Origin: Clostridia bacterium
Lineage (GTDB): Bacteria; Bacillota; Clostridia; Christensenellales; Borkfalkiaceae
Direction: 5' to 3'
Assembly (NCBI GenBank): GCA_017415505.1
Contig: JAFQGG010000002.1
Span: 1 to 63,792, forward strand
Length of the DNA stretch: 63,792 nt
This document shows positions 60,099 to 63,792 of this stretch, one piece after another. The stretch's first letter is position 1; the number at the start of each line of letters is the position of its first letter. A program made the translations under genes and the position numbers. Below the pieces are notes generated by a model. It was not told the origin of the DNA, ran no database searches, and worked only from the letters and a program-made list of their open reading frames with translations.

Positions 60099-60127
60099 TT
60101 GACAAAAGTAAAAAAAAGGCTTATACT
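60099..60127 (+). promoter_or_regulatory. Promoter of the tRNA-Arg transcription unit
   Basis: TTGACA, a 17-nt spacer and TATACT. The transcript would begin near 60134, run through the tRNA-like segment and end at the terminator after tRNA-Arg. Confidence 0.8.
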
Positions 60128-60155: not shown

Positions 60156-60182
60156 GCACTGTTAGCGCAACAGGATAGAGCG
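60156..60182 (+). pseudogene. 5' half of a tRNA-Arg copy
   Basis: The 27 bases match the acceptor strand and D-arm of the intact tRNA at 60338 with two changes (GCACTGTTAGCGCAACAGG, then ATAGAGCG). The anticodon arm of the same copy appears 115 bp later at 60298-60319 and the T-arm is missing, so this is not a working tRNA. Confidence 0.75.
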
Positions 60183-60297
60183 ACGAGCTACCCGTAAAGC
60201 AAAGCATTGATAATGCTTTGTAGGGGCGAGATGAGCGAGCGCATAAGCGGGCGCGAGCGTTGACCGAACGCAACGAAAACCGCGCGTTGCGTGAGAA
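60183..60297 (+). ncRNA. Structured repeat element, copy 1
   Basis: A segment of about 115 bp splits the tRNA fragment. It forms hairpins CAAAGCATT-GAT-AATGCTTTG (60200-60220) and ACGCAACG...CGTTGCGT (60268-60292). The second copy at 60512 keeps both stems with paired substitutions. It would be transcribed with tRNA-Arg. Whether it is a functional RNA or a mobile repeat is not known. Confidence 0.55.
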
Positions 60298-60337
60298 GGT
60301 CTACGGAACCGAAGGCTATCAAATAAATTAAATATTT

Positions 60338-60414
60338 GCACTGTTAGCTCAACTGGATAGAGCGTTGGTCTACGGAACCAAAGGCTAGGAGTTCGAACCT
60401 CTTACGGTGCACCA
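60338..60414 (+). tRNA. tRNA-Arg (anticodon ACG)
   Basis: A cloverleaf with 7-bp acceptor GCACTGT/ACGGTGC (one wobble), D-arm GCTC...GAGC, anticodon stem TTGGT/ACCAA around CTACGGA (anticodon ACG, read CGN after inosine formation), T-arm with GTTCGAAC, discriminator A and encoded CCA (60412-60414). A terminator follows 4 nt later. Confidence 0.95.
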
Positions 60415-60417
60415 GGA

Positions 60418-60451
60418 AACACCCCTGCGACGTTGGTCGCGGGGGTGTTTT
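60418..60451 (+). terminator. Terminator after tRNA-Arg
   Basis: A 14-bp stem with one G-U pair (AACACCCCTGCGAC / GTCGCGGGGGTGTT), loop GTTG, T run. Confidence 0.88.
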
Positions 60452-60460
60452 CCTGCGTGC

Positions 60461-60479
60461 AAGAGCTTCGAACTCCTAT
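60461..60479 (-). repeat. Inverted fragment of the tRNA-Arg T-arm
   Basis: On the minus strand this reads ATAGGAGTTCGAAGCTCTT, matching the T-arm of the intact tRNA (60385-60403) at 17 of 19 positions. Confidence 0.65.
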
Positions 60480-60511
60480 GTAACGAGGTTGACGTCATAC
60501 GGAACGGAAGG

Positions 60512-60630
60512 ACGAGCTGCCCGTTAAGAAAAGCATTAATAATGCTTTTTAGGGGCGAGATGAGAGAGCGCATATGCAACGCGCGAACGGTGACCGAGCG
60601 CAAAGCAAACCGCACTTTGCGCGAGAAAAG
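60512..60630 (+). ncRNA. Structured repeat element, copy 2
   Basis: Closely similar to 60183-60297. It keeps the hairpins AAAAGCATT-AAT-AATGCTTTT (60529-60549) and GCGCAAAG...CTTTGCGC (60598-60622), and the shared loop AAACCGC. It is preceded by TACGGAACGGAAGG, like the tRNA anticodon arm, and followed by AGTTCGATTTGGGTGACGTGC-like T-arm/acceptor remains to about 60650. No promoter is seen for this copy. Confidence 0.55.
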
Positions 60631-60721
60631 AGTTCGATTTGGGTGACGTGCGTTTGTGTTTTTACGGCGTTTTTCGATAAAAAGATAACGGCGTGGTAGT
60701 TTTGCTATCACGCCGTCAATA

Positions 60722-61459
60722 TTAGTCTAATCTTGTAACCCAAGTTTTATCAAATTTTAATGCTTCTAAAATACTCGCTTTGTCTAATTTTTTAGGAACT
60801 CTTATTTTTAAGTGGTATCTCTCGTCGGGGATTTCTTCTATAATTGTGAATTGGCTTCCGTGTGGTTGCCAAGTAAATTTATGGATATGTTTATCTTTTG
60901 TATATCCTTCTAAATTACCGCGATTATTCCACTCAAAAGTATATTGGTCGGCATCATAACGAACGGTTTCTATTTCAAAAATCAAATATTCGCTATAATC
61001 TAAACCTTTAACCAAAACAACAGTTCGTGCAAATTTGAAATATTGTCGTATTCCTGAAACTCGTTCATTCCAAATATCCAAAACCATTTTTCCAATAGAA
61101 TTAGGTTTGGCTTCGGTTATTCTATCAACGCCAAAACTATATGTAGGGGAATTTCTACCGCTAATTAAACGTACAGTTTTTTGAGTAGCGATATTGCTAC
61201 TTGCTTTAACGGTTTTTGCACTCCAACAGCAATTATCTAATATTACGTCGTCCAATCCTACATTAGAAGGTCGCCATTCCGCCCCTATACAATTTGCAAA
61301 TATTTGCTCCCACTCATTCCCTTCCAAAGACATTGTATCTTTTGTTGCCAACATATAAACAATTTCTTCGGCAAATTTTTCAATAAAAGCGGAAGGAAAT
61401 TTATTCATTGGATAAGGTGGTACAGCCTTATTGACCGTTCTTAATTTAGGTTCAGCCAT
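60722..61459 (-). CDS. Probable type II restriction endonuclease
   Basis: 245 residues, AT-rich like the neighbouring methyltransferase. The segment GLDDVILDNCCWSAKTVK (Asp71, Asp75, Lys82, Lys85) fits a PD-(D/E)xK nuclease core with a variant x-x-K end. The N-terminal half has FIEKFAEEIVYMLATKD and GNEWEQIFA. The gene is divergent from an m5C methyltransferase 167 bp away, the usual arrangement of a restriction-modification pair. I cannot read the recognition site. A role other than restriction is possible but less likely. Confidence 0.7.
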   Translation of the reverse strand: MAEPKLRTVNKAVPPYPMNKFPSAFIEKFAEEIVYMLATKDTMSLEGNEWEQIFANCIGAEWRPSNVGLDDVILDNCCWSAKTVKASSNIATQKTVRLISGRNSPTYSFGVDRITEAKPNSIGKMVLDIWNERVSGIRQYFKFARTVVLVKGLDYSEYLIFEIETVRYDADQYTFEWNNRGNLEGYTKDKHIHKFTWQPHGSQFTIIEEIPDERYHLKIRVPKKLDKASILEALKFDKTWVTRLD

Positions 61460-61626: not shown

Positions 61627-62820
61627 ATGATAGCAAATGTTGAATTACAAAGAAAAAGAGTAGGTTTAACGCAAACGGAATTATCAACTCGTGTGGGCAT
61701 TAGTCGGCGCGCACTTTCGTCAATAGAAAAATCAACGGCAATTCCGTCCGTTGATATTGCATTAAAACTTGCTACTATTTTGAATACAACCGTAGAAAAT
61801 TTATTTGCATTAGACGAAACGAAAACGATAGAAAATCTTACTGTGCCTATTGCTCAATCTAATATTGAAACGGCAAGTTCTAATAAGTGGCAAGAATTTA
61901 GATTTATAGATTTATTTGCTGGTATTGGCGGGATTCGTCTTGGATTTGAAAGTGTAGGTGGAAAGTGTGTTTTTTCTTCTGAATTTGACGAAGACGCTTG
62001 TAAAACTTATCAGGCAAACTTTGGAGAACATCCATCGGGAGATATTACAAAAATTGAAGCGAAAGATATTCCCGATTTTGATATATTATTAGGGGGATTT
62101 CCCTGTCAATCCTTTTCTATTATTGGTAAAAAGGAAGGCTTTGCAAATGAAACGTGTGGGACTTTATTTTTTGATATAGAGCGTATTCTTAAAGAAAAAC
62201 GTCCACCTGCTTTTATGCTTGAAAATGTAAGAAATTTGGTGGCTCACGATAACGGAAATACATTTAAGGTTATTCGTGAACATTTGGAAGCATTAGGGTA
62301 TCACGTTCACGCAAAAGTCCTTAATGCACTTGATTACGGCGTTCCACAAAAAAGAGAGAGAATTATTATTGTAGGATTTCTAAATGATATACCTTTTGAA
62401 TTTCCCGAACCGATTATGGAAAGCGAAAGAACAAGTTTAGCGGATATTCTTGAAGAAAATGTTGACTCTCGTTATTATGTTAAAGAAAATATAAAACAAT
62501 CAAGATTGGAACGACTTCGTGATAAGGAATATCCTAAACCTTATATTTCTCACGAAAATATGGCAGGTTCAGTAACTCCACACCCTTATTCTTCGGCATT
62601 AAGGGCTGGGGCTTCCGCGAATTATATTTTGATAAACGACGAACGCCGTCCTACGGAAAGAGAAATGTTGAGAATACAAGGTTTCCCCGATTCTTTCAAA
62701 ATTGTTTTACCTTATGGCAAAATAAAGAAACAATGTGGTAATTCCGTTGCTGTTCCCGTGATAAAAGCGGTTGCAAGCCAAATGTTAAACGCTCTTCGTG
62801 AACACGATAAAAGCGAGTAA
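61627..62820 (+). CDS. DNA cytosine-5 methyltransferase with N-terminal HTH
   Basis: 397 residues. Residues 1-65 are an XRE-type helix-turn-helix (RVGLTQTELSTRVGISRRAL). The m5C methylase motifs follow: I FIDLFAGIGGIRLGFE (about 93-108), IV GGFPCQSFS with catalytic Cys160, VI AFMLENVRNL, VIII DYGVPQKRERIIIVGF, the variable target-recognition part and X CGNSVAVPVIKAV. Fusion to an HTH is known in M.EcoRII/M.SsoII-type enzymes, which repress their own promoter. AAAGGAAATGAAATATG gives the ribosome site. It protects DNA from the divergent endonuclease. Confidence 0.94.
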   Translation: MIANVELQRKRVGLTQTELSTRVGISRRALSSIEKSTAIPSVDIALKLATILNTTVENLFALDETKTIENLTVPIAQSNIETASSNKWQEFRFIDLFAGIGGIRLGFESVGGKCVFSSEFDEDACKTYQANFGEHPSGDITKIEAKDIPDFDILLGGFPCQSFSIIGKKEGFANETCGTLFFDIERILKEKRPPAFMLENVRNLVAHDNGNTFKVIREHLEALGYHVHAKVLNALDYGVPQKRERIIIVGFLNDIPFEFPEPIMESERTSLADILEENVDSRYYVKENIKQSRLERLRDKEYPKPYISHENMAGSVTPHPYSSALRAGASANYILINDERRPTEREMLRIQGFPDSFKIVLPYGKIKKQCGNSVAVPVIKAVASQMLNALREHDKSE

Positions 62821-63400: not shown

Positions 63401-63792
63401 ATGTGTTACGATGAATTTTACGGAAACGGTTGCTGTGGCTACGGGAGCTGTGGCAGAGTGGTTTACTTGACGGGTCCGCGCGGACCGCAAGGACCGCAAG
63501 GCTTACAAGGACAGCCGGGGGCAACGGGCGCGCAAGGTCCTGTCGGTCCACAGGGCGAACAAGGGATTCAAGGCGAGGTCGGTCCGCAAGGTCCTGTCGG
63601 TCCACAGGGCGAACAAGGGATTCAAGGCGAGGTCGGTCCACAAGGTCCTGTCGGTCCACAGGGCGAGCAGGGGATTCAAGGCGAAGTCGGTCCACAAGGT
63701 CCTGCCGGTCCACAGGGCGAGCAGGGGATTCAAGGCGAAGTCGGTCCACAAGGTCCTGCCGGTCCACAGGGCGAGCAGGGGATTCAAGGCGA
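63401..63792 (+). CDS. Collagen-like Gly-X-Y repeat protein (5' part)
   Basis: The ATG at 63401 follows GGAGG; the frame stays open to the window end (at least 130 residues). A short Cys/Gly/Tyr-rich head ([18 protein letters not shown]) is followed by [20 protein letters not shown] and then Gly-X-Y triplets. This plan resembles bacterial collagen-like surface proteins such as the BclA group of spore coats or phage-tail collagens. Spore surface is possible but not shown, and the C-terminal domain is outside the window. Confidence 0.85.
63536..63792 (+). repeat. 54-bp tandem repeats encoding Gly-X-Y
   Basis: Units begin at 63536, 63590, 63644, 63698 and 63752 (last one cut). Each encodes [21 protein letters not shown]. 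Near identity at DNA level implies recent expansion. Confidence 0.92.

Follow-up and report, generated by a model that had tools for sequence, protein, structure and literature searches.

Bacterial genomes often carry small palindromic repeats; some classes of these, such as the CGTC-type REPs, lack a linked transposase and have no known mover (PMC3733652). The Rickettsia palindromic elements (RPE) are palindromic sequences of 105-146 bp that are found between genes as well as inside genes, including those for tmRNA and RNase P RNA, and they have been modelled as long stem-loops with 12 bp terminal inverted repeats (PMC2229807). The REP/REPIN sequences with their protein TnpAREP are short dispersed palindromes, with reported strand-specific recognition of the folded single strand and conserved mismatches in some stems (PMC8266576, PMC3733652). 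Furthermore, a survey of stem-loop repeat families removed tRNA-related clusters (PMC2267715).

The element analyzed here, called E, is a small palindromic repeat of a new kind, for which no mover is known; it lies mostly off tRNA genes but occurs repeatedly at identical structural positions in broken copies of tRNAs. Like the CGTC-type REPs, it is a short dispersed palindromic repeat without a linked transposase. E is, however, about three times longer than REPs, forms three hairpins, carries no GTAG tag at its ends, and the presence of Y1 transposase does not follow it. REPs bear a GTAG or CGTC tag, unpaired at one end of a short stem; the complement of the 5' end of E reads CTCGTC, though in an element of different size and plan. 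RPE is the nearest known kind, since E with about 116 nt falls within the RPE size range and occurs outside tRNAs as well as in partial tRNA copies. It differs from RPE by three separate GA-based hairpins, by its ends GACGAG...GAGAA that are not inverted repeats, and by its residence in partial tRNA copies and in Clostridia. With its 171 distinct copies, E provides a covarying fold of three hairpins, an unusual tandem G-A hairpin grammar, a usable test of DNA versus RNA selection, and a structural tRNA landing site in two genera and at several tRNAs. MITEs are small, non-autonomous elements with several copies per genome, terminal inverted repeats and target site duplication; E shares the small size, the non-autonomous nature and the several copies per genome, but has neither terminal inverted repeats of the MITE kind nor target duplication. 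The attC sites of integrons are characterized by attC boxes and by the integron integrase.

The tRNA-Arg locus of the window

The window, i.e. the whole stretch of 63,792 nucleotides analyzed from a Clostridia bacterium (contig JAFQGG010000002.1), contains near its 3' end an intact tRNA-Arg gene, around which the initial annotation had placed a duplicated structured element amid tRNA fragments. This layout was borne out. A predicted sigma-70-like promoter (60099-60127, plus strand; TTGACA at 60099, a spacer of 17 nt, TATACT at 60122) lies upstream of the tRNA-Arg unit, and TTGACA...TATACT-like sequences were also read upstream of many tRNA-Arg loci in relatives. The unit begins with a tRNA-Arg 5' part that runs from nucleotide 1 through the D stem (60156-60181, plus strand), in which 24 of 26 letters match the intact tRNA, and continues with E copy 1 (60182-60297, plus strand), a series of three hairpins with GA/GA at their bases, and an anticodon-arm remnant, GGTCTACGGAACCGAAGGCTA (60298-60318, plus strand; 95% to the intact tRNA). 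The intact tRNA-Arg(ACG) with CCA follows at 60338-60414 (plus strand; ARAGORN, and Rfam tRNA with 61.5 bits), then a terminator-like hairpin with 15-nt arms of 93% complementarity (60417-60450, plus strand) and an inverted T-arm piece (60461-60478, minus strand), which is 94% complementary to 60386-60403 in the tRNA 3' part.

The second copy is embedded differently. By reading, an anticodon-arm-like stretch, ACGGAACGGAAG (60499-60510, plus strand), was recognized at its 5' side, for which the counterpart in relatives is GGAACGGAAG in L038 and GGAACAGAAG in L067 and L092. The three-hairpin E copy 2 (60511-60627, plus strand) is followed by AAGAGTTCGATTT and by a T-arm-like remnant, likewise assigned by reading (60628-60640, plus strand), which is better kept as AGGAGTTCGAACC 3' of E in L038, L067 and L092. 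While the T-arm-like piece of the first description stands, the acceptor-like end that it had added is doubtful; GGTGACGTGCGTTTGTG 3' of copy 2 resembles the right half of the post-tRNA hairpin in L198 and L220, two relatives that lack E downstream. The two copies share 84.6% identity and differ by the three matched pair changes already described, to which an A-A mismatch in hairpin 2 of copy 2 has to be added. Their covariance scores of 123.5 and 126 bits prove nothing alone, because both copies were in the training set of the model R1; the pair is not due to chance, since the same element is present in many other genomes.

Fold of the element and its folded form

E comprises about 116 nt and three hairpins with the consensus C-GA-hairpin 1-GA-G, short linker, hairpin 2, GTGACCGA, hairpin 3, GAGAA; the linkers between the hairpins are unpaired and conserved across genera. 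Its base pairing is well supported. Standard pairs account for 92.4% of the pair cells in alignment A1, both-sided changes occur at 23 of 33 pairs, and the covariation score of 0.359 compares with 0.144 after shuffling and 0.047-0.102 with slid pairing, whereas further pair types, one of five covariation measures, were not above the shuffles (37 vs 40.2). The initial annotation had tied its reading to the existence of further copies and of covariation beyond the three pairs, and both exist, which favours it. For hairpin 2 the share of standard pairs in A1 is only 70%, owing to a register shift between two loop types and to the frequent G-A pairs at its base. Of 171 distinct copies, 164 carry GA at the 5' base of hairpin 3 and 167 at that of hairpin 1, the latter constancy being partly selected in the genus copies because the collecting pattern fixed letters around hairpin 1, with hairpins 2 and 3 outside it. 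The basal two-pair step of hairpin 2 was parsed in 139 copies and proved to be GA/GA in 88, Watson-Crick in 46 (AA/TT 29, TT/AA 5, GC/GC 4, CC/GG 3, others 5) and mixed in 5; hence, tandem G-A pairs exchange here as a block with Watson-Crick pairs. The copies from other genera, which were found by the model, follow the same plan, but their hairpin 1 is longer and bulged on its 5' side.

The strong covariation together with the tandem G-A pairs would fit a structured RNA module, for example a small RNA, a processing signal or a transcript-end element, which has been copied widely and at tRNA-Arg is transcribed under the tRNA promoter and excised together with the tRNA. The promoter-like sequence ahead of copy 1 points in the same direction, and because of it a small RNA transcribed with the tRNA is possible. 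Selection on RNA normally tolerates G-U but not A-C. With a stem finder scoring G-T and A-C alike, the E stems (3477 cells) contained 3426 Watson-Crick, 10 G-T, 7 A-C and 34 other cells, compared with 576 Watson-Crick, 63 G-T, 4 A-C and 5 other among the 648 cells of the tRNA acceptor and T stems at the same loci; the G-T/A-C proportions differ (Fisher p 0.0009), with the restriction that related copies are not independent. The hairpins after the tRNAs, i.e. the terminators, gave 853 Watson-Crick, 18 G-T, 3 A-C and 9 other cells, and the proportion in E (10/7) did not differ significantly from theirs (18/3; p 0.08). Hence, E shows no sign of RNA selection in that a G-U excess relative to the tRNA stems is lacking, but the terminator control keeps this indecisive. 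Moreover, the window copies exceeded their shuffles more as DNA (folding z -3.1 and -3.6) than as RNA (-1.7 and -1.8), while DNA and RNA folding hardly differed among 167 copies, with a slight difference for hairpin 1 only. Rfam was blank at the copies scanned, which also speaks against an RNA module; matches to mir-448 and sodF_sRNA were far under the gathering scores and lie on the tRNA/terminator palindrome, outside E. Although rated slightly higher because of the terminator control, the RNA module is in our view unlikely.

The stem counts and the z values of the window copies favour folded single-stranded DNA without proving it, and perfecting of palindromes alone would have removed the G-A pairs that are kept. 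The latter point bears on another explanation, in which replication slippage and template switching at hairpins generated E and its neighbours as by-products, with palindromes being perfected and tRNA tandems arising without a mobile enzyme or selection. The nearly perfect Watson-Crick stems agree with such an origin, as do partial tRNA tandems free of E (L230, L231) and the inverted tRNA 3' ends past terminators in the window, L053 and L120. Perfecting would, however, erase G-A pairs, yet almost every copy retains them at the same positions (in hairpin 1 of the genus copies partly through pattern selection), unpaired linkers such as GTGACCGA are conserved across genera, and slippage does not carry one sequence to many unrelated sites, which makes it a decidedly unlikely source of E.

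On balance, we lean towards E being a non-autonomous dispersed palindromic DNA repeat, comparable to RPE and REPs, that acts as folded single-stranded DNA and lands also at tRNA-fold junctions. One strand of E folds into three hairpins closed by tandem G-A pairs, with the conserved unpaired stretches between them, and this folded single DNA strand may be recognized and then copied or inserted by a cellular or mobile enzyme. Its sites comprise intergenic positions, other palindromic repeats and the junctions of the tRNA fold, namely the border between D stem and anticodon stem and the variable region. At tRNAs it lies in partial tRNA gene duplicates, which probably came first, next to an intact gene by which the function is kept.

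Distribution and landing sites

BLAST with the locus revealed four further copies in the window's own genome (in C1 and C45, and at contig ends in C22 and C49). Among the 41 genomes in the first set of relatives, 18 showed matches; all 18 belong to one genus, and some of the matches cover the tRNA remnant only. A pattern scan of genome contigs yielded 78 stretches, all titled as Clostridia or Clostridiales MAGs, with 51 of the titles pointing to gut samples from sheep, goat or deer. The covariance model R1, built from 53 copies, matched 36 of 57 genus genomes including the window's own, with up to 21 matches in one genome (G011), and 14 of 297 genomes of the order, of which 12 belong to the window's family, one to another family (G106, 55 bits) and one is a weak partial match (G096, 28 bits). 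The second model R2, from 20 copies of which 18 stem from other genera, detected E in 72 of 201 family genomes and 8 of 18 genera, and in 2 of 391 genomes of the class, namely that of the window and another from its family; since limited candidates were scored per genome and the genomes are incomplete, all copy numbers are minimum values and absences have to be taken with caution. The viral contigs, phages and plasmids searched gave no E match, and no publication on E was among the matches listed from the open literature by title and abstract start. E is a real and apparently undescribed structured repeat family. In the samples searched it is lineage-specific, with copies in one gut Clostridia family and a single genome from a second family of the order.

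Some copies show special arrangements. Tandem head-to-tail copies occur in MAG RGIG8495 (L076:731-960, L095:4738-4960, L125:2661-2886). In genus g20 (L178, L179, L276, L315, L316), E is nested mid-way in another dispersed hairpin repeat (ttgcccacccctcgag...gggtgtcaccgtaggtgacggaaggggtg and variants).

The upstream regions of 46 intact tRNA-Arg(ACG) loci of the genus were read, leaving out L240 with 3 nt upstream and L242 and L243 without a tRNA. At 18 of them R1 detected E upstream of the intact tRNA, preceded by a tRNA 5' part that ends at the D stem (one of these, L226, starts inside E at a contig end, with the 5' part outside the sequence). A full E is absent ahead of the tRNA at the other 28, which speaks against an RNA module; L051 carries a broken E. 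A partial tRNA can exist without E, since L230 harbours an E-free partial tRNA of about nucleotides 1-50 and L231 an E-bearing unit followed by an E-free partial copy. The same layout of 5' part, E and intact tRNA was found in genus g18 at tRNA-Arg (L185, L271, L304, L295) and ahead of other tRNAs (L172, L195); the window's genus has it at tRNA-Glu (L065) and at a similar tRNA (L121). This recurrence of 5' tRNA part, E, more sequence and intact tRNA in two genera and at several tRNAs is consistent with an RNA module, and so is the finding that none of the 71 copies with enough right flank, out of 83, showed E in reverse sense against a tRNA 5' part. By eye, E is opposite in sense to the neighbouring tRNA-Gly in L116. 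Downstream of tRNA-Arg, E was found in L201, L209, L210, L214, L221 and L223, preceded either by an anticodon-like stretch (L201, L210, L214, L221) or by another hairpin module (L209, L223). A different module, also made of GA-based hairpins (GGAGCG..hairpin..GACGGAATAGCGAACGCTTTGCGTGAGCGTCAGG) occupies the variable-region site of E downstream of tRNA-Arg in L212, L213, L215, L224 and L225.

In a strict 80% test, 11 of the 83 copies from the pattern scan abut a tRNA piece (8 a 5' part and 3 a 3' part), a count that is raised by looser cases recognized by eye (L121, and L090 and L109 with altered D loops). Recurrence at tRNAs and these counts make tRNA copies a favoured but minority site of E. 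Thus, from the earlier suggestion of a tRNA-targeting mobile repeat the dispersed repeat and the recurrent tRNA site with fixed position and orientation were retained, whereas tRNA targeting as main habit was not, because most copies are not at tRNAs by the tests made. A single ancestral lineage of tRNA-site copies was likewise not supported: after 35 copies without genome label had been dropped, the nearest copy of the 14 labelled 5'-site copies was another 5'-site copy in 3 cases, one from the own genome in 4 and a non-tRNA copy elsewhere in 7. It is quite unlikely, in our estimation, that insertion is guided by the tRNA fold itself, i.e. that an enzyme recognizes the cloverleaf of the single-stranded tRNA gene, or of the RNA, and inserts E in one sense at the junctions (D stem/anticodon stem border, variable region), with the partial duplicate as landing pad. 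The enzyme of E, once found, would tell if a folded tRNA gene can be a transposition target.

The initial annotation had also considered a decayed intron-like insertion. This was not supported, because the tRNA 3' part is missing downstream of copy 1 and excision would therefore not yield a tRNA; a self-splicing intron was rejected for the missing 3' exon and the Rfam blank at the copies scanned.

Mobility and neighbouring genes

The movement of E by an enzyme, as assumed for a dispersed DNA repeat, may be reflected in G063, where two conserved stretches, taken as genes, flank E and other repeats, and where R1 detected E while it did so in none of nine orthologous loci fetched. The two stretches are 248-345 bases apart in L255, L259, L261 and L262 versus 617-768 in G063; they are separated by more than 1000 bases with other sequence between in L256 and L258, and the second stretch was unmatched in L257, L260 and L263. 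In L158 (G063:C27, about 1460-1860), a hairpin module of the GGAAGTCAAGGAACTCAGTTCCTTG type precedes E and a similar module is found inverted at the far side of the insert. The nearest relative came from the same genome for 83 of 124 non-tRNA copies, a proportion favoured by the fetching of several copies per genome. The two letters 5' of E are biased: 98% of the copies have a purine at the first and 75% have G at the second. Target duplications were not found, as border repeats of 4-8 nt were no commoner than in shuffled flanks among 166 copies, and GC skew indicated no strand preference (41 of 85 non-tRNA copies, 64 of 114 in all). A general insertion into hairpin loops was also rejected, with a flank pairing of -14.86 for 81 copies versus -14.59 for shuffled flanks (sd 0.36).

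The search for a mover was confined to the families of Y1 transposase and reverse transcriptase, and both candidates were dismissed because their presence does not follow E. The Y1 transposase domain (PF01797) was found in 11 of 36 E-bearing versus 10 of 21 E-free genus genomes and reverse transcriptase (PF00078) in 4 of 36 versus 4 of 21, and G011 with its 21 E matches has neither of them. No protein family recurred in more than 6 of 78 loci, frames through E aside; the underlying ORF survey included numerous spurious frames crossing E, and only this absence of a recurrent neighbour was taken from it.

In the window, the tRNA-Arg locus is adjoined by genes for a 245-aa protein without Pfam match and a C-5 cytosine DNA methyltransferase with N-terminal HTH (PF00145, PF01381), at 60722-61459 (minus strand) and 61627-62820 (plus strand), which look like a restriction-modification pair. 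The methyltransferase gene would be in line with E being an att-like recombination site of integrative elements that use tRNA genes, and tRNA 3' ends were indeed found on both sides of tRNA-Arg inserts in L213 and L224, which hold the other module and not E. Most copies, however, are away from tRNAs by the strict test, no gene recurs beside the copies, and G005 (L200) has sequence similar to the window's neighbourhood 3' of tRNA-Arg with E absent there, so that we regard an att-like role as very improbable.

Two further features of the window may be mentioned. The tRNA 3' part, the terminator and the inverted tRNA 3' part form one long palindrome at several tRNAs, in the window at 60386-60478 and likewise in L053, L120 and L133. 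Finally, a frame of collagen-like Gly-X-Y repeats occupies positions 63401-63790 (plus strand) and runs past the window end.
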